The notes under the pieces were generated by a model. The model worked only from the letters and a program-made list of their open reading frames with translations. It did not search any database and was not told where the DNA came from. The translations under genes and the position numbers were made by a program. Below, in pieces: positions 989 through 28,432 of a stretch of 64,000 nucleotides of DNA. How positions within the stretch are numbered: position 1 is the first letter of the stretch; each line of letters starts with the position of its first letter. This DNA comes from an uncultured Eubacteriales bacterium (GTDB lineage: Bacteria > Bacillota > Clostridia > Saccharofermentanales > UBA5734), in NCBI GenBank assembly GCA_903835065.1, contig CAILLO010000022.1, positions 1 to 64,000 on the forward strand, given 5' to 3'.

Positions 989-3900
989 TCAGTTCGCGAC
1001 CGTCCACGATTTGTTCCCGGTACGTTTAATTGTAATCGTGCGAGAGGTTCCATCGCTGCCGTACACCAGGACGAAGTAGTTCGTGTTCAGCTGGAACGTC
1101 CCGGAGGTCCTTGTGAAAATCACCGTGTTGCCGGAGACCGATGTCGAGTACCCGGCGAACGTCGGGTTGAAGTCCGCACTGGTGATCGTTTCGTTGAAGG
1201 TGATCGTGACGCTTGTCGTGTTTCCACTGATGCCCGTCGCCCAGACCGGGACGGAGACCGCGCAGGTGTCCGTGAATCCACCTTCCGTCGTCGTCACGGT
1301 GACTGTCGCGACGCCCCCCCCGACCGCGGTCACGACCCCGGTGCGGCTGACCGTTGCGACGCTCGTATTGCTACTGATCCAGTTCACCGTCTGCACCGTC
1401 GCGTTGGAAGGAATGAAGGTCCACGTCAGGGTTGCCGTCGACCCTTGGTTGATGCTCAGGGTGGAATTGTTCAGCGTGATCCCCGTCACCGCGATTCCGG
1501 CCGTGACCGTGCAGGTGTCGGTGAAGGATCCGTCGGACGTCGTGACCGTGATGACGGTCGTGCCACCGATCGTGGCATTGCTCTTGACCGTCACGAGGCC
1601 GCTCGTGCCGACGGTCGCGACGTTCGTGTTGCTGCTCGTCCAGGTGACGTTCTGGTTCGAGGCGTTGGCGGGCGCGATCGTGGCCGTCAGCTGCGAGGTC
1701 CCGCTACGGGGCACCGTCACGGCCGAACGGTTCAGGGTGACGTCGGTCACCGGCACGTTGACGGTGACGAAGCAGGTCGCCGAGAACCCTCCGTCCACCG
1801 TGGTGACCGTGATCGTCGCCGTTCCATTGGCCACGCCGGTCACGAGACCGCTGCTGCTGACCGAGGCGACGCTCGGGTTGTTGCTCGACCAGGTCACGTC
1901 CGTCACCGAAGCGCCGGATGGCACGATCGTCGCGACCAGCTGGTAGGTCGCACCCTTGTTGACGGTGCGGGTCGCGACGTTCAGCGTGACGCCCGTCACC
2001 GGGTTGCGGACGGTGACCGTAGTCGTATCTGTATATCCGCCGACCACCGTGGTCACGGTGATGGTACAGTTGCTTCCCAGCGTCGCGGTGCCCTTGACCG
2101 TGACGAGTCCGCTCGTGCTGACCGTCGCGACATTTGAATTGCTCGTGCTCCAGGTGACGGACGGATTCGTCGCGTCCGCAGGCGCGACCGTCGCGATCAG
2201 CTGGTACGTGTTGCTTCGGTTGAGAATGACGGACGAGACGTTCAGCGTGACGCCCGTCACCGGCACATTCACCGTGACCAGGCAGTCGTCGGTGAACCCT
2301 CCGTCCACCGTGGTGACCATGATCGTCGCCGTTCCATTGGTCAAACCGGTCACGAGGCCGCTGCTGCTGACGGTGGCGACGCTCGGGTCGCTACTAGACC
2401 AGGACACGCCCTTCACCGTGGCGCCGGACGGAGCGACTGTCGCGACCAGCTGGTAGGTTGCGCCCTTGTTGACGGTGCGGGTGGAGACGTTCAGCGTGAC
2501 GCCCGTTACCGGCGTGCCGGCCGTGACCGTGCAGGTGTCGGTGAAGGATCCATCGGACGTCGTGACCGTGATGATGGTCGTGCCACCGATCGTGGCATTG
2601 CTCTTGACCGTCACGAGGCCGCTCGTGCTGACGGTCGCGACGTTCGTGTTGCTGCTCGTCCAGACGACGTTCTGGTTCGAGGCGTTGGCGGGCGCGATCG
2701 TGGCCGTCAGCTGCGAGGTCCCATTGCGTGGCACCGTCACGACCGAACGGTTCAGGGTAACGTCGGTCACCGGCACGTTGACGGTAACGAGGCAGGTGTC
2801 GGTGAAACCGCCGTCCATGGTGGTCACCGTGATTGTGGCGGATCCGCTGCCCACCGCCGTCACGCGGCCGCTGGCGTTCACCGTGGCCACGCTGGCGTCG
2901 CTGGTGCTCCAGCCAACGTTCTGGTTGTCCGCGGAGGCCGGAAGCACCGTCTGGTTCAGCTGGAAGCCGCTCCCGACGTTCAGGGTATAGGCGTGCAGGT
3001 CAAGGCCCACGCTCGTGACCCTGCGGGGACCGACCGTCAACGTCAACGTCATGGTCTTGGTCGGGTCGAGGACGGCGGTGCCGGTCCGCGTCACCGTTCC
3101 GACGATGCTCGTATCCACGTTGTTGATATTCCATGTGACGGCCACGTAACGTTTGGACCCGTCGACCAGGTCGGCCACGACGGTCGCAGGCAGCGTGAAG
3201 GGCAATCCCTTCTCCACGGTAGTGGAAAAATCCTCGAGTCTGGCGATTCCCTGTACGTTCAAGGTCAATGTCGTGGTCTTGGTTCCGTCGGCGACCGCGG
3301 TCGCCGTGTAGACCTTCGTCCCGGTCGTGGAGGTGTCGGCGGTGGTCGGAACCCAGACGACGGCGACATTCTGCATCGTGCCGTTGGTCATGTACGCCTG
3401 GACGGTCGAAGGCAGCGTGTAGTTCTCGCCCTTCACGGCGTTGTCGACGATCGGCTTGAGCGAGTAGATCCCGTTGACCGGAGGAACCGGTTCATACTTG
3501 TTCTCGAGGTAGGTCAGGACGCTGGCGGAGTCGGTCGTCGAAAGCGTTCCGCTGTAGAGGATGATTTCAGCGACGTCCACGTTGGAGTAGTTCGTGCTTC
3601 CATTGAAGCCGATCGACAGCGCCGTGCTGTTCGTGATCGCGGATCCGATCGTGCGGGTTCCCGTCTTCGCCGTGCCGTCGTCCATCTGGAGGTTCAGCCC
3701 GCTGGTCGAGGCGGAGCCCATCAGAATATGCCAACCACCGTCCAGCGCGACGTTGGCATCGGTGCTGAGTGAATTGGTGCCGCTGGAGTTCTTGATGTAC
3801 CAGCCGAGCTGGTTGCTCGAGGTCCAGCCGACCGACCAGCCGGTCGTGCTGCTCAGCTTCGAGACGATCGTCTTGCCGGACGTCGTGGCAGCGCTGCGCG

Positions 3901-4996
3901 CCACGACAATCACGGTCATGTTGTTCTGGTCCAGCGAATTCGCGTCCGCGACGGTCAAGCCCTTGCTCCCGTCGAACTGTACGTATTTCGCGTAGGTCTC
4001 ATATTGATTGTTCCCCGATGCGAAACTTCCCATGTCGGCTTCAATCAGCTTGGGCTGCAGGGAGGTCGTCGACTGGACCGCATTGTTGGTGTTCCCGGAA
4101 AGATCGGTCCATTTCTTCACGGAAAAGGTGGTGACGGGAACGCCGTTCACGGTGGTCGTCGCGGACACGACCGCCGACGAATCCTCCTTGGAGATCATCG
4201 AGGCGTCGAGATGGAGCATCAGGTTGGAGATCACGGGCAGGCCGTTGATGAAGACCGGATTGCTGACGACCGTGTCGCCCATCTTACCGGTCGTCGACGC
4301 CGGAGTAATCGTGTAGACGATATGCCGGCCCGCGTAGGTCGACAGGATCGTCGCCAGGCTATACCCGGATTCGCCCTTGATCAGGACGTAGTCGTCGGGG
4401 AATCTCGGATAGATCGTGCCCTTTTCGATTTCCTGGGCGCCCGTGACCATGGGGATGTTGAAGCCCTCGCGCGACACGTACCAGCGGTTGATGTTCGTCA
4501 GGTTGACGTTGCTCGGATCCACAAGGGTGAAGCTCGAGGCGACCTGCAGGAGATTGGTTCCCGCATAGGCGAAGGGCAGCGTGTTCGTTCCGTCGGTCAA
4601 GGAAATCCCCACGCCGGTCGCCGTCGCGACGGCGAATTCCGGCATCCGATTGTCCGCGACGATGGTGTCCAGGTTGACCGTGTTGTTCCCGACGTGGATT
4701 GCGAACTGGTTCGGATACCCGTACACGGTCCGCTGGTTCGCCGTCCCCTGGAACAGGATGTAGGCCGTCCTCGTCTGCCCGCTCGGAGACGTCCCGCTCT
4801 GGATCGCCGTCCGGACGTCCGTGATCGTCTGTTCGGCGCTCTGCTGCGCCGCATAGAGGTCCTCCGTCATCTTGCGGGTCTGCACCAGCATGGAGTACTG
4901 GTTCGTCAGACCCGGCATCAACATCGCTGCGATGATTCCAAGCAACGCGATCGAAAGCAGGATTTCGATCAGGGTCAATCCTCTTCTGCTTTTCAC
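989..4996 (-). CDS. Giant prepilin with LamG-like domain, two Big_4-type and seven Big_2 Ig-like repeats
   Basis: About 1335 residues, far longer than a usual pilin (about 150). The N-terminus is a class III (type IV) prepilin leader: a short basic peptide ending KSRRG, then LTLIEI with Glu at +5 and a hydrophobic helix to about residue 30. After a pilin-like region come a concanavalin A/LamG-like domain (about 256-505), two Big_4-like Ig domains (about 513-658), seven Big_2 Ig repeats of 83-86 residues (about 660-1252) and a distinct 85-residue C-terminal domain. I chose the GTG at 4996, preceded by GAGG at an 8-base spacing; the GTG at 5005 overlaps that Shine-Dalgarno. It is the last gene of the pilus cluster. 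I infer an exposed pilus-tip adhesin: prepilin peptidase would process it, the helix would seat it in the pilus, and the Ig stalk would project the lectin-like head. Confidence 0.85.
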   Translation of the reverse strand: MKSRRGLTLIEILLSIALLGIIAAMLMPGLTNQYSMLVQTRKMTEDLYAAQQSAEQTITDVRTAIQSGTSPSGQTRTAYILFQGTANQRTVYGYPNQFAIHVGNNTVNLDTIVADNRMPEFAVATATGVGISLTDGTNTLPFAYAGTNLLQVASSFTLVDPSNVNLTNINRWYVSREGFNIPMVTGAQEIEKGTIYPRFPDDYVLIKGESGYSLATILSTYAGRHIVYTITPASTTGKMGDTVVSNPVFINGLPVISNLMLHLDASMISKEDSSAVVSATTTVNGVPVTTFSVKKWTDLSGNTNNAVQSTTSLQPKLIEADMGSFASGNNQYETYAKYVQFDGSKGLTVADANSLDQNNMTVIVVARSAATTSGKTIVSKLSSTTGWSVGWTSSNQLGWYIKNSSGTNSLSTDANVALDGGWHILMGSASTSGLNLQMDDGTAKTGTRTIGSAITNSTALSIGFNGSTNYSNVDVAEIILYSGTLSTTDSASVLTYLENKYEPVPPVNGIYSLKPIVDNAVKGENYTLPSTVQAYMTNGTMQNVAVVWVPTTADTSTTGTKVYTATAVADGTKTTTLTLNVQGIARLEDFSTTVEKGLPFTLPATVVADLVDGSKRYVAVTWNINNVDTSIVGTVTRTGTAVLDPTKTMTLTLTVGPRRVTSVGLDLHAYTLNVGSGFQLNQTVLPASADNQNVGWSTSDASVATVNASGRVTAVGSGSATITVTTMDGGFTDTCLVTVNVPVTDVTLNRSVVTVPRNGTSQLTATIAPANASNQNVVWTSSNTNVATVSTSGLVTVKSNATIGGTTIITVTTSDGSFTDTCTVTAGTPVTGVTLNVSTRTVNKGATYQLVATVAPSGATVKGVSWSSSDPSVATVSSSGLVTGLTNGTATIMVTTVDGGFTDDCLVTVNVPVTGVTLNVSSVILNRSNTYQLIATVAPADATNPSVTWSTSNSNVATVSTSGLVTVKGTATLGSNCTITVTTVVGGYTDTTTVTVRNPVTGVTLNVATRTVNKGATYQLVATIVPSGASVTDVTWSSNNPSVASVSSSGLVTGVANGTATITVTTVDGGFSATCFVTVNVPVTDVTLNRSAVTVPRSGTSQLTATIAPANASNQNVTWTSSNTNVATVGTSGLVTVKSNATIGGTTVITVTTSDGSFTDTCTVTAGIAVTGITLNNSTLSINQGSTATLTWTFIPSNATVQTVNWISSNTSVATVSRTGVVTAVGGGVATVTVTTTEGGFTDTCAVSVPVWATGISGNTTSVTITFNETITSADFNPTFAGYSTSVSGNTVIFTRTSGTFQLNTNYFVLVYGSDGTSRTITIKRTGNKSWTVAN
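1501..1770. repeat. Copy A of near-identical 270-bp repeat (Big_2 repeat 6)
   Basis: Aligns without gaps to 2521-2790. I count 12 differences in 270 bases. The offset is exactly 1020 bp, or four Ig repeats. Other repeats in the gene are clearly more diverged at the DNA level. Confidence 0.8.
2521..2790. repeat. Copy B of near-identical 270-bp repeat (Big_2 repeat 2)
   Basis: Partner of 1501-1770. Neighbouring repeats 3 and 5 (about 2280-2520 and 1765-2010) also resemble each other, so a block of repeats seems to have been duplicated or converted recently. Confidence 0.8.
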
Positions 4997-5021
4997 TTGG
5001 TCCACCTCGTTTGCCTTGGGT

Positions 5022-6434
5022 CTACAGTTTCGGTCCCTGCAGGTACCACAGATCGTTGACGATGTCCTCGCGAATCTTGGTGAACACCTGGTTCAGGACG
5101 GTCTGGCTACCGGCGCGGAAAATACGGTCGGTAGTCGCTCCACAATCGGAAGCGACTTCGTTGATGTCGGAGAGTTCCGAGGAAATGGACGAGAAGCCGA
5201 TCACGTAGGTCTTGGCGAATTCGCCTTGGGAAAGCATGCCGCCGAGCAGGGCATTGTAGTCCTGCCCCTTCGAATCCAGCGACGAGCCGTTGCCGGCGAT
5301 CTGTCCGGAGGACGTGTTCTGGGGAGAGGTGTCCAGATATCCTTCGTTCACGTTCTGGTTGTCGACGACGAAATTCCGGTTCTTGTTGCTGAGGACGCTC
5401 GCGAACGTGGTCACGCCATCGGTCAGGAAGATCACGTAGTTCCTGACGATCGTGTTCGCAGGGACATCCGTCATGTGCGCCTTGAGGTTCCAATAGGCCC
5501 GGCGGAGGCCGTCTCCGGTGTTCGTGCCTCCGAGGGCCGTGAACGAGTTGATGAGACTCGTGAAGCTGGAGAGGTTGGTGTGGGCGTTGTAGAAGGCGCC
5601 GGGGTTGTTGGCCGACGTCGCGAAGGGCACGAGGCACACGTCGATGTTGTCCTCGAGTCCGAAGGAATTGAGCAGGGTCTGCGTCTCGCTCCTGAGAATC
5701 GAGATCCGGCTGGGGTTCCCGGTATAGCCGGCCAGGTTGTCCGCCATGCTGCCGGATACGTCGAGGACCATCGCGATATGCCCCACGACGTTCGCGGCGC
5801 GGTCCTGGATCCGGAAGGCGATCGCGACGGCCGGATCGAGCGGGGTGGACAGGTCGACGACCTGCAGGGAATTGACCGACTCGACCTGGGACGAGACGGA
5901 GAACTGCGCCCGAGGCTGGCCGAACTCGTCGAGGCTACCGGCCGGGTAGCTCTTGATGGAGAACTGGAGCATGCTGTCCGCCTGATTCGGGTTCACCATC
6001 ACGAAGACGATCTCATAGTCCACGTCGGCCTTGGCCGTCAGGAGAACATAGGGGATATGCGTGTCCGTGGCGCTGTCGTAGCGGTACTGGACGATCTGCT
6101 TGCCGTAGACCGCCGGGTTGCCGTTCTGGGCGGGCGTGATCAGCACTTGCTGGATACCGATGTAGTCCCAGCCGGTATCAAGGTTGTCGGCCCGGAAGCT
6201 GGATTGGGGAATCGTGAACACGGCGGACGCATAGCGGATCACCGAAGTGGTCTTCTGCATGACGAGTCGCGTGGAGAACTGGAAATCATATTCGTCGTTG
6301 CTCGCCTTGAGCGTCCCCGTGCCGAACCAGAGAATCAGGGTGGCGGTCATGGCGACGACGCCCAGAAGGGCCATGACGACGATCAGTTCAATCAACGTGA
6401 AGCCTGATTGGTTCCGGACCGGCAGACTCTTCAT
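5022..6434 (-). CDS. Prepilin-like protein with von Willebrand factor A domain
   Basis: 470 residues. Leader MKSLPVRNQSG then FTLIELIVV (Glu at +5), so it should be cleaved by prepilin peptidase after Gly11 and inserted as a minor pilin. Residues 215-465 form a VWA domain with a complete MIDAS metal site: DVSGS at 225-229, the conserved Thr in GGTNTGDG (302-309), and LTDG at 337-340. VWA domains in surface proteins bind ligands or matrix through a divalent metal, and VWA modules are known at pilus tips (PilY1, Gram-positive tip adhesins). It starts 34 bases after the PilX-like gene and ends 25 bases before the LamG/Ig prepilin, so the three are probably cotranscribed and assemble together. 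Tip adhesin function is inferred from architecture. Confidence 0.85.
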   Translation of the reverse strand: MKSLPVRNQSGFTLIELIVVMALLGVVAMTATLILWFGTGTLKASNDEYDFQFSTRLVMQKTTSVIRYASAVFTIPQSSFRADNLDTGWDYIGIQQVLITPAQNGNPAVYGKQIVQYRYDSATDTHIPYVLLTAKADVDYEIVFVMVNPNQADSMLQFSIKSYPAGSLDEFGQPRAQFSVSSQVESVNSLQVVDLSTPLDPAVAIAFRIQDRAANVVGHIAMVLDVSGSMADNLAGYTGNPSRISILRSETQTLLNSFGLEDNIDVCLVPFATSANNPGAFYNAHTNLSSFTSLINSFTALGGTNTGDGLRRAYWNLKAHMTDVPANTIVRNYVIFLTDGVTTFASVLSNKNRNFVVDNQNVNEGYLDTSPQNTSSGQIAGNGSSLDSKGQDYNALLGGMLSQGEFAKTYVIGFSSISSELSDINEVASDCGATTDRIFRAGSQTVLNQVFTKIREDIVNDLWYLQGPKL

Positions 6435-6468: not shown

Positions 6469-6933
6469 TCACGAGCTCTTCCGTATCAACGGGTTCGAAT
6501 ACTGGAAGGCCAGCGTCGAGGTCTTCATCGTCGACGAGCCGCTCAGCGTCGCGAGACATTGGATCGTGATCCAGCGCTCCGAGTTCACCGCGGACGCGGA
6601 GATCGTCAGGTCGACGGAACCGTTGGGCAGCGAAAGGTGATCCGACAGGGTCTGGGGGGACGTGACCGACGGGTTGTACTTCTGGTAGAGCAACGTGTCG
6701 TTCGCGCCGCCCGTGCCTTGCTGCATCAGGGAGGAGAGGCACAGGTCGATCCCGGACTGGGCCAGGTAGTAGACCTGGAGGTCCCGTTCCTGCGCCCTGG
6801 CCTGCACCAGGTTGTTGTTGACGATGTTCCCCACGATCATGGCGAAGATCATGATCACGGCGAACACGATGATCACGAATGCCAGTGCGGCACCTTTCTT
6901 CTTCCCTGTTCGGAACGTGCGAGAAATCTTCAT
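6469..6933 (-). CDS. PilX-like minor pilin
   Basis: 154 residues. A basic leader ending KKKG is followed by AALAFVIIVFAVIMIF, a hydrophobic N-terminal helix without Glu5, as in PilX/GspK-type minor pilins that prime or cap pilus assembly. The rest is a small soluble domain beginning with a helix that runs into LVQARAQERDLQVYYLAQSGID, typical of this class. The ATG has a GGAG ribosome binding site 8 bases upstream. It opens the minor-pilin transcription unit, with its own extended -10 promoter at 6976-6984 separated from the major pilin by a strong terminator. Assignment as PilX-like is by general architecture; a type II secretion pseudopilin is the alternative. Confidence 0.7.
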   Translation of the reverse strand: MKISRTFRTGKKKGAALAFVIIVFAVIMIFAMIVGNIVNNNLVQARAQERDLQVYYLAQSGIDLCLSSLMQQGTGGANDTLLYQKYNPSVTSPQTLSDHLSLPNGSVDLTISASAVNSERWITIQCLATLSGSSTMKTSTLAFQYSNPLIRKSS

Positions 6934-7142: not shown

Positions 7143-7523
7143 TTAGGAGAGCTTGCCCGTGCCCTGGTTGAAGGTAGCAGTCAAAGCATTGCCATTATTA
7201 ATGGAAACTGTGACTGTAGTAGCGGTAACAGAGACTTTGAATGTGTTGCCAGTAGCATAGCTCTTTGGGACTGGCCAGGCCGAGACATAGGCGGCGATGT
7301 CACCCGTCGAGGAAGTGAAGTCCGCGGCCGCTCCACCCTGGGACAGGACCATCATGCCGGCATTGTAAAGCATCTTGGCGTTGGCGACGTCGGTCGCCTG
7401 ATTGGCCTTGCCGATGAACCCGCTGATGGTGGGGACGAGGATGGCGGCCAGGATGGCGAGGATGGCGATGACGACGATCAGTTCGATGAGGGTGAAGCCT
7501 TTCTTGTTCCTGTGGATTTTCAT
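7143..7523 (-). CDS. Major type IV pilin
   Basis: 126 residues. Leader MKIHRNKKG then FTLIELIVVIAILAILAA, a canonical type IV prepilin with Gly at -1, Phe at +1 and Glu at +5. The globular part is short (about 90 residues), as in Gram-positive type IV pilins, and has no Cys pair. Ribosome binding site GGGAG lies 7 bases before the ATG. The gene stands first in the cluster and is bounded downstream by the hairpin at 7091-7124, which fits high expression relative to the minor pilins. No assembly ATPase, platform protein or prepilin peptidase is encoded in the window, so those must lie elsewhere. Confidence 0.88.
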   Translation of the reverse strand: MKIHRNKKGFTLIELIVVIAILAILAAILVPTISGFIGKANQATDVANAKMLYNAGMMVLSQGGAAADFTSSTGDIAAYVSAWPVPKSYATGNTFKVSVTATTVTVSINNGNALTATFNQGTGKLS

Positions 7524-8082: not shown

Positions 8083-8132
8083 GGTCGAAAAGGACACGTC
8101 CGACTCGGGACGTGCGGGTGTGGAGGCAGACA

Positions 8133-9881
8133 GTGGACCAGGGATTGGCCGTGTTCTTCAGCGAACCTCAACTCTTTTTTCCCGTCCTGGCTTTTTCCAT
8201 CCTCCTGCTCGGGGCGGGTGGATATCTGGTGTACAAGATCGTCGCCATATTCGCGGACCGCGTCCATTCCCTCCGCTGGCTCACGGGCACGGTGGCCGGG
8301 TTCGACCGCTGCCGCATCGCGAACTGGCCGGAGATTCGTGCCCTGGTCTTCCCCGAGACCGAACCGGGCCTCTCGGCGGCCTTCGAACGGATTGACACCG
8401 ATTCCGCTGATCTTTTCCACGGCGCATGGATTCCTCGACCTCTACCCTATATGAAGCCTCTCAACATGATTCCGCCGCGGGAAGCCTGGTTGCTGTCGAA
8501 GGATGCCTTTCTCCTGGCGCCGGCCGCAGGCATCGTGGCCTCGATCGTCTCCGTCCTTTCCGGATTCGCCTTCCGTTCCCAACTCGTCCTGGACGGTCGC
8601 GTCGGAGCGCTTCTACTCGATTGCGCGATTCCGGCGATGCTCGGCATATTCCTCCTGCTCTGCAGTTCAGTCCTCTTCTTCGCCCTTTCGGCCTGGCTCA
8701 AGGGGACGCTCGCTTCCCTCACGAGGGAAATCGCGCACAAGGTTCCGGTATATTCGGATTCCCTGGCCGTGGCCGCACTGCTCGATTCCTTCATGCAGTA
8801 CGACCGGCAGATGGCTGCAGCGGTCGGCTTCCTCGACGACAGCGTCGCGGACCTGGCATCCCACAAGCTGTCGGAAGCCGTCGCGGAGGCCGCCGAGAGG
8901 ATCATGACGACGGCCGTGGCGCCGGCGGTCGAGAACCTCAACGCCTCGATGGTCCGCGTCGCCGAACAGCTCGACCGGAACCAGCAGGAGGGCATGCGGC
9001 TGCTCGCGAAGGAATTCGCCGTCGCACTGTCCGAGGACTTCCGGGTCCACTTCGCGCCGGTGTCCGAGCAGCTCGACACCGCGTCCGCGCAGCTCGTGCG
9101 GGCCGAGAAGAACTTCGAGTCGACCCTGACAATGATCAAGCAGCTCCGCTCGGAGACCGCCGCCCTCGTCGAGGAGATGGTCAAGTCCGAGAAGGTGCTG
9201 GAGACGTCGCGCTCGGGATTCCTCAGCGAGATCGTCGGCGTCGCCGAGAACCTCAACACGCTGGCCGCCGCCTCCGACCGCATGGCGTCCGTATATGAGG
9301 GCAACGAGACCAGGCTGTCGGCCGCCGTCGGTCACATGTCCACCTCGATGGACCAGCTCGGCGACCGCGTCGTCTCGCTCTTCGAGAACGCCGGCGCGAC
9401 GTCGAAGCAGACCGCGGAGCAGGCCGCCGCCGCCCTGATGGCGAACGAGGCGCACCTCGAGGAGATGCGCAAGCAGATCACGATCCTGTCGGACGAGCTC
9501 GCGACGCGCATTGACCAGGTGATCATCGGGTTCGGCAGCGTGACGGGCGAGACCCTGTCGGGCTTCCGCGAGACACTCGACGCCCAGAACGAGGCCTTCA
9601 CGTCCAACGTCAAGGAGCTCCTCACCCAGATGGAGGAGGAGTCCCGCAGCATGAGCCTCTACGCCAAGGAAATCGACGTCGACCTGACCGAGCTCAAGTC
9701 GACGTTCAAGGACTCCGTCGGACTGTTCAACCAGGGGATGACCGAGGAGATCCAGAAGACACTGGGCCAGTTCGACACCGGCCTCGCCGAGATCGTGAAG
9801 CGGCTGGCCGTCTCCTCCGCCGAGATCGGCGATGCGGTCGAGGCGCTGCCGCAGGCGCTTCGCGGCATCGCACCGCGCTGA
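8133..9881 (+). CDS. Three-helix membrane protein with long coiled-coil domain, unknown function
   Basis: About 582 residues. Hydrophobic segments lie at about 14-38, 127-147 and 161-188, followed by about 380 residues rich in Ala, Glu, Ser and Thr with heptad-like spacing and almost no Pro or Gly (predicted coiled coil). The layout TM1, soluble loop of about 90, TM2-TM3, long tail resembles MotA/TolQ/ExbB-type proteins and especially long-tailed relatives such as ZorA, but I do not see the conserved channel motif between TM2 and TM3, so homology is only a suspicion. The tail also recalls methyl-accepting or RmuC-like coiled coils. GGAGG at 8122-8126 sits 6 bases before GTG 8133, which decides the start over the upstream GTG at 8112. 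The next gene starts 16 bases downstream, implying a joint function. Confidence 0.75.
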   Translation: MDQGLAVFFSEPQLFFPVLAFSILLLGAGGYLVYKIVAIFADRVHSLRWLTGTVAGFDRCRIANWPEIRALVFPETEPGLSAAFERIDTDSADLFHGAWIPRPLPYMKPLNMIPPREAWLLSKDAFLLAPAAGIVASIVSVLSGFAFRSQLVLDGRVGALLLDCAIPAMLGIFLLLCSSVLFFALSAWLKGTLASLTREIAHKVPVYSDSLAVAALLDSFMQYDRQMAAAVGFLDDSVADLASHKLSEAVAEAAERIMTTAVAPAVENLNASMVRVAEQLDRNQQEGMRLLAKEFAVALSEDFRVHFAPVSEQLDTASAQLVRAEKNFESTLTMIKQLRSETAALVEEMVKSEKVLETSRSGFLSEIVGVAENLNTLAAASDRMASVYEGNETRLSAAVGHMSTSMDQLGDRVVSLFENAGATSKQTAEQAAAALMANEAHLEEMRKQITILSDELATRIDQVIIGFGSVTGETLSGFRETLDAQNEAFTSNVKELLTQMEEESRSMSLYAKEIDVDLTELKSTFKDSVGLFNQGMTEEIQKTLGQFDTGLAEIVKRLAVSSAEIGDAVEALPQALRGIAPR

Positions 9882-9897
9882 ACCCGGGCGAAGGCGC

Positions 9898-11223
9898 ATG
9901 AACGCCCCCACCGTGTCCGCTCCCGCGGCGCCGGCCGCCCTTCCCTCCTTCTTCTCCGCGCTGCAGAAGGTCCGCGACCGCTTCCTGCTTCCGCCCGAAC
10001 AGGTCGACCGCTATTCGGCCGACGAGGTCGACGAGCTCCTGGCCGGCGTCCAGGCCCTCCGGGGCGGGCCCGCCGCCTGGAAGCGCAACGCGATGCTGAT
10101 TCCCCGCCGTCAGGTTTCGCTCCTCTTCCCCGCCCTGCTGCGCACCGAGGACGCGGAGCTGATCGAGCGGCTCCAGCTCGTGCTCGAAGCCCGCGCGACG
10201 CCGTCGCTGCACGCGCTCGGCTGGGCCCACTTCCAGCACGGCTACGAGGACGCCCGCATCGTGACGGCCTTCCAGCGACTGCACGCCGCGCTGTCCCCCA
10301 AGGACGCGAAGCGGGTCCCCCCGATCCCGCCGGGCGACGGCGGACCGGTCGACTGCTCGCTGTCGCAGCGGATCTACGAGAAGATCAAGGAGTCGCGCAT
10401 CTCGGAGGTCGACCCGTACTTCGCGCAGTACGGGATCCTGCCGGACACGGCTTTCGCCCGGGCCATCCTGACGCTCTTCTTCTCGACCTGCCCCGACGAG
10501 GGCTTCGTGCGCAACGAGGACGCCTTCGTCCGCATGCTGCCCGGCCTCGACGCCGACGGCGGATTCCTGGTGATGGCCCAGTACCTCAAGGAGCACCGCA
10601 TCGGAACCCGCTACCGCACGCTCAACGAGGGCATTCTCGCCGGAATCGGCCCGCCCGACTCGGGGCACGCCGTCTGGAGCAAGGTGCCGGAGAAGACCCG
10701 GGCCAAGTTCTGGAAGTGGATGGTCGCGCGCGCCGTGGAGGACCACCTCGCGGACAACCCGCGCAAGTTCGGGCTGCTCGTGCGCTACATCCCGTACATC
10801 GAGACCGTGCGCCAGCTCTACGAGAATATCCTGGTCATGGGATTCGGCGCATTCTACCTGGTCGACGACCGGCTGGCACCGGGGACGACGTACTTCTACG
10901 ACAAGGCGGCCTACGAGCTGTGGGCCGAGTCGATGGAGAATTCGGAGATGACCGAGGAGGAGCTGGAGCAGTACGGCAAGCCGTCGGTGCCCGCCCCCTC
11001 CCCGACCGAGAAGGCCCCGCTCGACGAAATCCTGCCGTCCCTGCCGGTGCAGGCGGCGAAGCGCATCGTCATGGAGGCATTCAAGGCGAGCGCCGTACTG
11101 ATCGACTGCCGGGAGGTCGGGCTGCTGTTCGCGCGCGATTTCCTCGACGACGCGCTGGGCATCAGCCGGCGCGGCAAGGAATCGGCGGCCCGGGCGGGCG
11201 GAGCCGCCAGTCGGCTGTTCTAG
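9898..11223 (+). CDS. Soluble partner protein of the coiled-coil membrane protein, unknown function
   Basis: 441 residues, mostly helical, with no signal peptide or membrane segment and no P-loop. A low-complexity Ala/Pro N-terminus (1-15) and a Pro/Ser linker near 360-375 (PAPSPTEKAPLD) divide it into a large domain of about 340 residues and a C-terminal helical domain. Conserved-looking stretches include WSKVPEKTRAKFWKWMV and GTTYFYDKAAYELW. A helical repeat ending in a Trp/Arg-rich segment is remotely reminiscent of the EH-signature proteins (ZorC) that accompany ZorA, but I cannot confirm this. GAAGG lies just upstream of the ATG. It is convergent with the V-ATPase operon, with only 13 bases between stop codons. 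Confidence 0.75.
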   Translation: MNAPTVSAPAAPAALPSFFSALQKVRDRFLLPPEQVDRYSADEVDELLAGVQALRGGPAAWKRNAMLIPRRQVSLLFPALLRTEDAELIERLQLVLEARATPSLHALGWAHFQHGYEDARIVTAFQRLHAALSPKDAKRVPPIPPGDGGPVDCSLSQRIYEKIKESRISEVDPYFAQYGILPDTAFARAILTLFFSTCPDEGFVRNEDAFVRMLPGLDADGGFLVMAQYLKEHRIGTRYRTLNEGILAGIGPPDSGHAVWSKVPEKTRAKFWKWMVARAVEDHLADNPRKFGLLVRYIPYIETVRQLYENILVMGFGAFYLVDDRLAPGTTYFYDKAAYELWAESMENSEMTEEELEQYGKPSVPAPSPTEKAPLDEILPSLPVQAAKRIVMEAFKASAVLIDCREVGLLFARDFLDDALGISRRGKESAARAGGAASRLF

Positions 11224-26956: not shown

Positions 26957-28432
26957 TCACGCGCCGAGGATGCGGACGAACCGCGGGTTGTCCTGTTCGT
27001 TGATGATCGTGCCCTTGTTCTCGAGGATGAACTCGTACTGCCGGATCACGTCGCGCGTCAGGCGCTCGCCGGGGATCACCAGCGGGATGCCGGGAGGATA
27101 GGCCATCAGGGACTCGCCGCTGATCTCGCCTTCGGCCTCGGAGATCGGGACGATGCGCGACGGCGCGTAGAAGGCGTCGCGGGGCGGCACGACCAGGCGC
27201 GGGCGCGGCAGGGCGACGATGCCCAGCGGGTCGGAGCCCCAGGCCTCGAGCGGCGGGCGCCGGCCGAAGTACTCGCGCGACAGCGCCTCGAAGGCCTCGG
27301 CGAGGCGGGCGAGCGTGCCCGCGTCGTCGGCGAACGAGCAGATGGCGAGCACGGTGTGCGGCTCGGACAGCTCGAGCTGGATGCCGTACTTCTCGCGCAT
27401 CGCGCGGTACGCCTCGTAGCCGCTGATCCCGAGATCGTTGACCTTCACGGCGATCTTGGTCCCGTCGTAGGCGAAGATGCCGGGCCGGCCGACGTCGGCG
27501 GCGGACAGCACCTCGAGGCCGGGCACCGCGGCGATCCGTCCGCGCGCCGCCGCGACCTGCGGAAGCAGGCGGGACAGGCGCTCCTGGCCCTCGGTCGCGA
27601 GCAGGGCGCGCGTCGCGTCGAGGCTCGCCATGAGGAGGTAGGAGGCGCTCGTGGTCTGCATGAGGTTGATCGCGCCGCGCACGGTCTGGTGGTCCACCAG
27701 GCCCTCGTTGACCAGCAGGGCCGAGCTCTGGGTCAGCGAGCCGCAGGTCTTGTGCAGGCTCATGGTCGACAGGTCGGCGCCGCAGTCCATCGCGCTGGCC
27801 GGCAGGTCCTCGTGGAAGTGCAGGTGCGCTCCGTGCGCCTCGTCGACGAGCACGGCGATCCGGCGACGGTGGCAGTAGGCGACGATCGCGGCGAGGTCGG
27901 AGGCCGCGCCGTAGTAGGTCGGATTGACGACGAGCAGCGCCGCGGCGTCGGGGTTCTCGGACACGGCCTCCTTCACGGCGTCGAGCGTGATGCCGTGGGA
28001 GATGCCCCAGCGCGGGTCGGTCTCGGGCTGCAGGAACACGGGCACGGCGCCGGTCAGGATCAGCGCGTTGATCGCCGACTTGTGGACGTTGCGGGGCAGT
28101 AGGATCTTCGCGCCGGGCTGGCAGGCGGAGAAGATCATGGCCTGGACGCCGAAGGTCGAGCCGTTCACGAGGAAGAAGGCCTCGTCCGCGCCGTAGAGGT
28201 TCGCGAGCAGGCTCTCCGCGTCCTTGATCACGCCGCGGGGGTGATCCAGCAGGTCGAGCTCGGGCATGGAGTTCATGTCGAGCCGCAGTCCCTGCCGGTC
28301 GAGCGCGTCGGAGAAGCGCGTCCGCAGGGCGCCCTTCTTGTGGCCGGGCACGTCGAACGACAGGTTGCCGTTGTCGGCGGCGCGAGAGAGCGCCGTCAGG
28401 AGCGGGGTCTTCTTCTGGTGCGTGTAGTGCAT
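26957..28432 (-). CDS. speA: Arginine decarboxylase (Orn/Lys/Arg decarboxylase fold I)
   Basis: 491 residues, the short form of the aspartate-aminotransferase-fold decarboxylases found in Gram-positives (Bacillus SpeA type). DVPGHKKG near the N-terminus, DEAHGAHL at 197-204 for PLP, and Lys228 in SLHKTCGSLTQSS as the Schiff-base lysine. Lysine decarboxylase is the paralogous alternative, but agmatinase and spermidine synthase downstream argue for arginine. Starts 10 bases after speD. Confidence 0.9.
   Translation of the reverse strand: MHYTHQKKTPLLTALSRAADNGNLSFDVPGHKKGALRTRFSDALDRQGLRLDMNSMPELDLLDHPRGVIKDAESLLANLYGADEAFFLVNGSTFGVQAMIFSACQPGAKILLPRNVHKSAINALILTGAVPVFLQPETDPRWGISHGITLDAVKEAVSENPDAAALLVVNPTYYGAASDLAAIVAYCHRRRIAVLVDEAHGAHLHFHEDLPASAMDCGADLSTMSLHKTCGSLTQSSALLVNEGLVDHQTVRGAINLMQTTSASYLLMASLDATRALLATEGQERLSRLLPQVAAARGRIAAVPGLEVLSAADVGRPGIFAYDGTKIAVKVNDLGISGYEAYRAMREKYGIQLELSEPHTVLAICSFADDAGTLARLAEAFEALSREYFGRRPPLEAWGSDPLGIVALPRPRLVVPPRDAFYAPSRIVPISEAEGEISGESLMAYPPGIPLVIPGERLTRDVIRQYEFILENKGTIINEQDNPRFVRILGA

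Follow-up and report, generated by a model that had tools for sequence, protein, structure and literature searches.

Two adjoining genes in a 64,000-nucleotide stretch of DNA from an uncultured Eubacteriales bacterium (contig CAILLO010000022.1, positions 1 to 64,000; hereafter the window, from a 2.5 Mb Clostridia assembly listed as G000 in our genome set) encode proteins, termed A and B here, that are almost certainly homologous to ZorA and ZorC of the Zorya anti-phage systems. The pair is not itself a Zorya system. The reading we favor, to which we assign a probability of roughly 0.55, is that A and B constitute a motor-less ZorA-ZorC membrane-rod scaffold that is coupled to type IV pili in some lineages; within that reading, the role in pili is the least secure element. 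A first-pass annotation, made from the letters alone, had described two genes at 8133-11223 in which a protein with three membrane helices and about 380 residues of coiled coil is followed, after a 16-base gap, by a soluble partner of 441 residues, and the open reading frames (ORFs) bear this out:

8122-8126, + strand: GGAGG ribosome-binding site of gene A, read from the sequence, 6 nucleotides upstream of the GTG at 8133
8133..9881, + strand: gene A, a ZorA-like membrane protein of 582 amino acids (ORF calling; ZorA is the best PDB fold; profile match)
9684..9863, + strand: conserved C-terminal tail tip of A, FDxxLAExVxRLxxTTAEIRDAVDALPxAL (family alignment and alignment with ZorA)
9898..11223, + strand: gene B, a ZorC-like soluble helical protein of 441 amino acids that lacks the EH signature residues (ORF calling; ZorC 8r68 is the best PDB fold)

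The longest ORF for A opens at 8112, and GTG 8133 is the likely start because of the GGAGG placed 6 nucleotides ahead of it. The stop of A at 9881 and the ATG of B at 9898 leave the 16 bases between them. The layout of A is that of ExbB and TolQ: a first transmembrane helix (TM1), a loop of ~90 residues, a TM2-TM3 pair, the coiled-coil tail of ~380 residues and a conserved tail tip of ~60 residues. Its three hydrophobic segments span residues ~19-41, 132-154 and 165-190, with helix thereafter to the C-terminus. B is soluble and consists almost wholly of helix, apart from a small beta portion at its C-terminus; it has no coiled coil.

The likeness to ZorA with ZorC remarked upon by the first-pass annotation is real homology, established by profile matches to zorABCD operons, profile-profile scores and blind fold matches. 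It is visible only through family alignments and folds. The profile checks proposed for the two proteins say nothing by themselves: PF01618 (MotA/ExbB/TolQ) has no match to A, nor any in the whole genome, and PF15611 (EH signature) scores below cut-off against B. Single-sequence profile searches with A and B were likewise uninformative, save for weak ZorA matches that were strongest at the C-terminal end. When the last 67 residues of A were used as a profile, ZorA (8qyk; also 8qyd) emerged as the best of 177,635 PDB sequences, aligned end-to-end with an E value of 0.004; the tail tip aligns from end to end with the last 60 residues of Escherichia coli ZorA. The family profile of B matches ZorC at three operons elsewhere (L121, L122 and L123; E values of 1e-15, 3e-12 and 2e-12, near full length), and in each the match sits between ZorB and ZorD, while the profile of A matches the gene preceding ZorB, again near full length. 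PADLOC models label the L121 operon ZorA1, ZorB1, ZorC1, ZorD1; at L121 and L122, ZorC is a weak match to the PADLOC ZorC models and is recognized mainly by context. In profile-profile comparison, B matches ZorC across 289 columns (E value of 3e-14) and the core of A matches the core of ZorA across 207 columns (E value of 3e-9).

Structure prediction of each chain, as had been proposed, gave the same answer. Template-free AlphaFold2 models of A and B, built from 25-29 sequences, were compared blind with the PDB. For A, the top four matches in the whole PDB were ZorA structures (8qyd, 8qyh, 8qyk and 8qyy, probability 1.00), with ExbB and TolQ making up most of the next matches; for B, whose model has a predicted local distance difference test score (pLDDT) of 85, ZorC 8r68 came first with a probability of 1.00, the other listed matches reaching at most 0.57. 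The fold search found ZorC where the B profile had found no match among PDB sequences. Matches to apolipoprotein, spike, JetC and LmuB were dropped as noise of coiled-coil composition, and matches of the A profile at L124 and L126 proved to be other coiled-coil proteins with no B beside them.

A occurs in 65 of 188 genomes of the order, comprising nearly all members of families f1, f3 and f4 and none of f2. The two genes do keep company, as the proposed count of co-occurrence shows: in 45 of the 46 loci where the contig permits judgement, the gene immediately downstream of A is B, L049 being the exception, and the spacing in relatives is mostly a 4-base overlap or fewer than 30 bases. Both genes are under purifying selection, the ratio of nonsynonymous to synonymous substitution rates (dN/dS) in seven close genome pairs being 0.10-0.18 for A and 0.14-0.21 for B. 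Given this constancy and these ratios, the pairing is not due to chance. Families f1, f3 and f4 each form a single clade in the A tree and again in the B tree, and therefore, within the reach of quick tree searches with long branches, the phylogeny points to vertical inheritance in these three families, which belong to one Clostridia order. The family also has conserved motifs of its own, namely YDRxM, RQExGM and the tail tip.

Some members depart from the common form. In family f3 (L054-L062), B corresponds to just the helical N-terminal half of ZorC, preceded by a long low-complexity N-terminal extension. Two genomes, G008 and G014, neither of which has PilM, carry a second pair, belonging to the clade of the window, ahead of a gene for an ABC1-family atypical kinase (L032 and L034); the second A of L032 is 863 amino acids long.

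Reportedly, Doron et al. 2018 found the ZorA Ser/Thr and ZorC Glu/His positions to be essential for Zorya I. Zorya I requires ZorA, ZorB, ZorC and ZorD; it also depends on the aspartate of ZorB and on ions flowing past a ring of Ser/Thr residues in ZorA, and deletion of any one component abolished protection in the Zorya I system tested (PMC11890865). ZorB is a single-TM protein that carries this Asp and an OmpA-like peptidoglycan-binding domain. Profile searches found no ZorB in the window genome or in 51 of 58 relatives, and no ExbD-like protein in the window genome or in 56 of the 58; as a positive control, the ZorB profile recovered a divergent ZorB in one relative (G011, locus L069). A ZorB or ExbD encoded in trans is thereby rejected for the window genome. 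The helicase/nuclease ZorD is absent from the A-B loci and present in all genuine zorABC loci fetched. Other families of the phylum do have intact zorABCD operons (L121, L122, L123, L125, L169, L170 and L171).

Motifs were compared between five ZorA and five ZorC references and 40 A and 26 B proteins. The TM3 serine, found in 5/5 ZorA proteins, is Ser in 0/40 and Thr in 4/40 A proteins, and the residue preceding this position is Pro in 30/40; A does not carry the Ser/Thr ring of Zorya type I (TM2 Thr, TM3 Ser). The EH glutamate, present in 5/5 ZorC proteins, occurs in 0/26 B proteins, being Asp in 20/26, and the EH histidine, invariant in the ZorC set, is absent from B; in family f3, the C-terminal part that would hold both residues is lost. 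With ZorB, ExbD, PF01618 and ZorD absent, and with the TM3 serine and EH residues lost, A-B is not Zorya. The first-pass annotation was right that there is no ZorB, no helicase and no apparent channel motif, as profile searches, loci and the TM3 position agree; its suggestion of a minimal motor-like device is unsupported, because motor partner and TM3 serine are both missing.

In several lineages, the pair is encoded within type IV pilus operons. The gene order is pilB-T-C-M-N-O-A-B at L063, pilM-N-O-A-B at L064 and L070, and A-B-pilB-T-C-M-N-O at L119, while at L117, L118 and L120 the pair adjoins pilins and pilB-T. At L031, from the same genus as the window, it adjoins pilins, with pilC-M-N-O. 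In the window too the pair adjoins pilins, and pilB-T-C-M of this genome lie on another contig (C60). These pilus-linked pairs fall into at least three separate clades of the A tree and four families, the groups being the window clade, a paralogous f1para clade, and families f75, f83 and f105. In a sample of the phylum, pilus-linked pairs with B were found in 4 of 398 genomes besides the window genome, with one remnant in G368 (L168, 9844-10194), where a B fragment with an internal stop adjoins pilT-pilB and no A was detected; there the pair has decayed and the pilus genes have been kept. One relative carries a variant (L069:160-2738, G011 contig C426) in which pilO is followed by a ZorA-like A and then by a ZorB-like gene, at which the contig ends; in this ZorB-like protein, the motor Asp is replaced by Tyr (S-Y-L-M vs S-D-L-M). 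No report linking Zorya with pili was found among the papers searched, judged by titles and abstracts.

The pilin-like genes of the window itself form a cluster divergent from A:

7143..7523, - strand: major-pilin-like gene with N_methyl and a class III signal, divergent from A and adjoining it (profile match)
6469..6933, - strand: small membrane-anchored PilX-like ORF of the divergent cluster (named by sequence reading only)
5022..6434, - strand: prepilin-like protein of 470 amino acids with N_methyl and a von Willebrand factor A domain (profile match)
989..5005, - strand: prepilin-like protein of 1338 amino acids with N_methyl and Ig-like Big_2/Big_4 repeats (profile match)

The Big_2/Big_4 and von Willebrand factor A prepilin-like proteins (989-6434, - strand) are unusual, and may be pilus-tip adhesins. 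At the contig start, 78-734 (+ strand) reads like a DDE transposase fragment, separated from the Big_2 prepilin gene by some 250 bases. On the other side, a V-type ATPase operon, named by sequence reading, is convergent to B. A PilT match at 26957-28432 is spurious, since the translation of this ORF resembles a lysine/ornithine decarboxylase.

How might such a pair work? By analogy with ZorA and ExbB, A may assemble into an oligomeric ring whose tails would bundle into a rigid cytoplasmic rod, and B is predicted to dock on the ring or rod. Because there is neither an ion path nor a peptidoglycan tether, the rod would be a static scaffold and not a rotor. In the pilus-linked lineages, including that of the window, the probable task of this scaffold is to anchor or position the machinery that assembles the pilus (PilM-N-O and the PilB/PilT ATPases); where the pair lies away from pilus genes, it would serve another envelope role. 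The annotation's alternative of an unrelated membrane scaffold therefore half survives: a scaffold it probably is, but one related to Zorya.

Several observations weigh against this account. The tail of the A model is of low confidence, with a predicted template modeling score (pTM) of 0.42, and the TM2 position remains Ser/Thr in 28/40 A proteins. Genes for fatty-acid synthesis, IMPDH or ddl/recG are the neighbors of the pair in most genomes of f1, f3 and f4. The pair is missing from family f2 (more than 100 genomes), which has PilM and PilB, and PilM is missing from f4 and from many f1/f3 genomes that carry the pair; a general co-occurrence of the pair with pilus genes across genomes was tested and, on these patterns, rejected.

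Foremost among the rival explanations is a stripped-down Zorya-like defense, in which A-B would sense phage disturbance of the envelope or pilus and recruit an effector encoded elsewhere. Type IV pili often serve as phage receptors, the two proteins are homologous to ZorA and ZorC, and genuine zorABCD operons occur in the same phylum. We nevertheless consider this explanation unlikely, as Zorya I needs every component (PMC11890865) and here the genome is without ZorB, the loci are without ZorD, and the serine and EH residues are lost. Context speaks against it as well, and with it against the sensor/effector pair for defense that the first-pass annotation had entertained: the spread is vertical and family-wide, with type IV pilus operons in several lineages; the neighbors are housekeeping or pilus genes; and neither a defense-island location nor a mobile or patchy distribution was seen in the loci, the trees or the plasmid, phage and viral collections searched, and those collections yielded no copy of the pair.

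Less probable still is that A-B remains a motor, working with an ion-driven or peptidoglycan-binding substitute for ZorB or ExbD encoded in trans. The ExbB-family fold of A, the TM2 Ser/Thr that is mostly retained and the ZorB-like gene directly after A at L069 would all fit; yet the ZorB search that recovers this very case finds nothing in the window genome or in most relatives, ExbD-like proteins are scarcer still, the TM3 serine is lost, and the L069 protein has Tyr in place of the motor Asp.

Two further possibilities are very improbable. That the pair is an unrelated membrane coiled-coil scaffold, its likeness to ZorA owed to coiled coil alone, gains some color from the spurious apolipoprotein and spike matches that such segments yield, but is refuted in the main by fold and profile-profile matches, which are carried by the membrane core of A and not its tail, and by B, which has no coiled coil and matches ZorC independently. 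A decaying remnant of a Zorya operon would account for the missing ZorB and ZorD, the lost signature residues and the one broken copy in G368, and is refuted for the order studied by retention across families, the new conserved motifs and dN/dS of 0.10-0.21 in both genes.

Set beside known systems, the motor-less scaffold that we favor shares features with three and differs from each. With Zorya type I it shares a ZorA-homologous A, down to membrane core, coiled-coil tail and tail tip, a ZorC-homologous B, and the order of A before C; it differs in having no ZorB between them and no ZorD after, in the loss of the TM3 serine and EH signature, and in a context that is vertical, and pilus-linked or housekeeping. 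With the stators of PF01618 (ExbB, TolQ and MotA) it shares the three-helix ExbB/TolQ layout and fold, whereas its channel motif is degenerate, the genome has no PF01618 match, and there is no ExbD, TolR or MotB partner. With the type IV pilus platform (PilM-N-O and PilC) it shares an operon in several lineages; A and B are, however, not Pil homologs, and many pilus-bearing relatives are without A-B, just as many bearers of A-B are without PilM.

A bolder proposal, which we regard as tentative and somewhat less probable than not being so, is that the ZorA-ZorC module (ZorA-ZorB in one relative) represents a subcomplex of type IV pilus machines in Clostridia that has not been described before, a dead stator turned cytoplasmic rod. 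If true, Zorya and the pilus module would share a common ancestor, with either Zorya built from a pilus scaffold or the scaffold domesticated from Zorya.

The general view of Zorya is of a motor dedicated to phage defense, with ZorA meaningful only alongside ZorB and an effector. That a ZorA-ZorC pair is conserved and under selection with neither of these suggests that ZorC and the rod of ZorA make up a functional unit of their own, and a motor-less pair lets one ask about the role of ZorC outside defense. It also serves as a warning that ZorA profile matches alone do not mean Zorya. Repeated placement in pilus operons ties a phage-defense machine to pilus biology, offers a way to test how Zorya originated or was domesticated, and suggests that parts of this defense machine may also serve a second time, as a membrane scaffold linked to pili.
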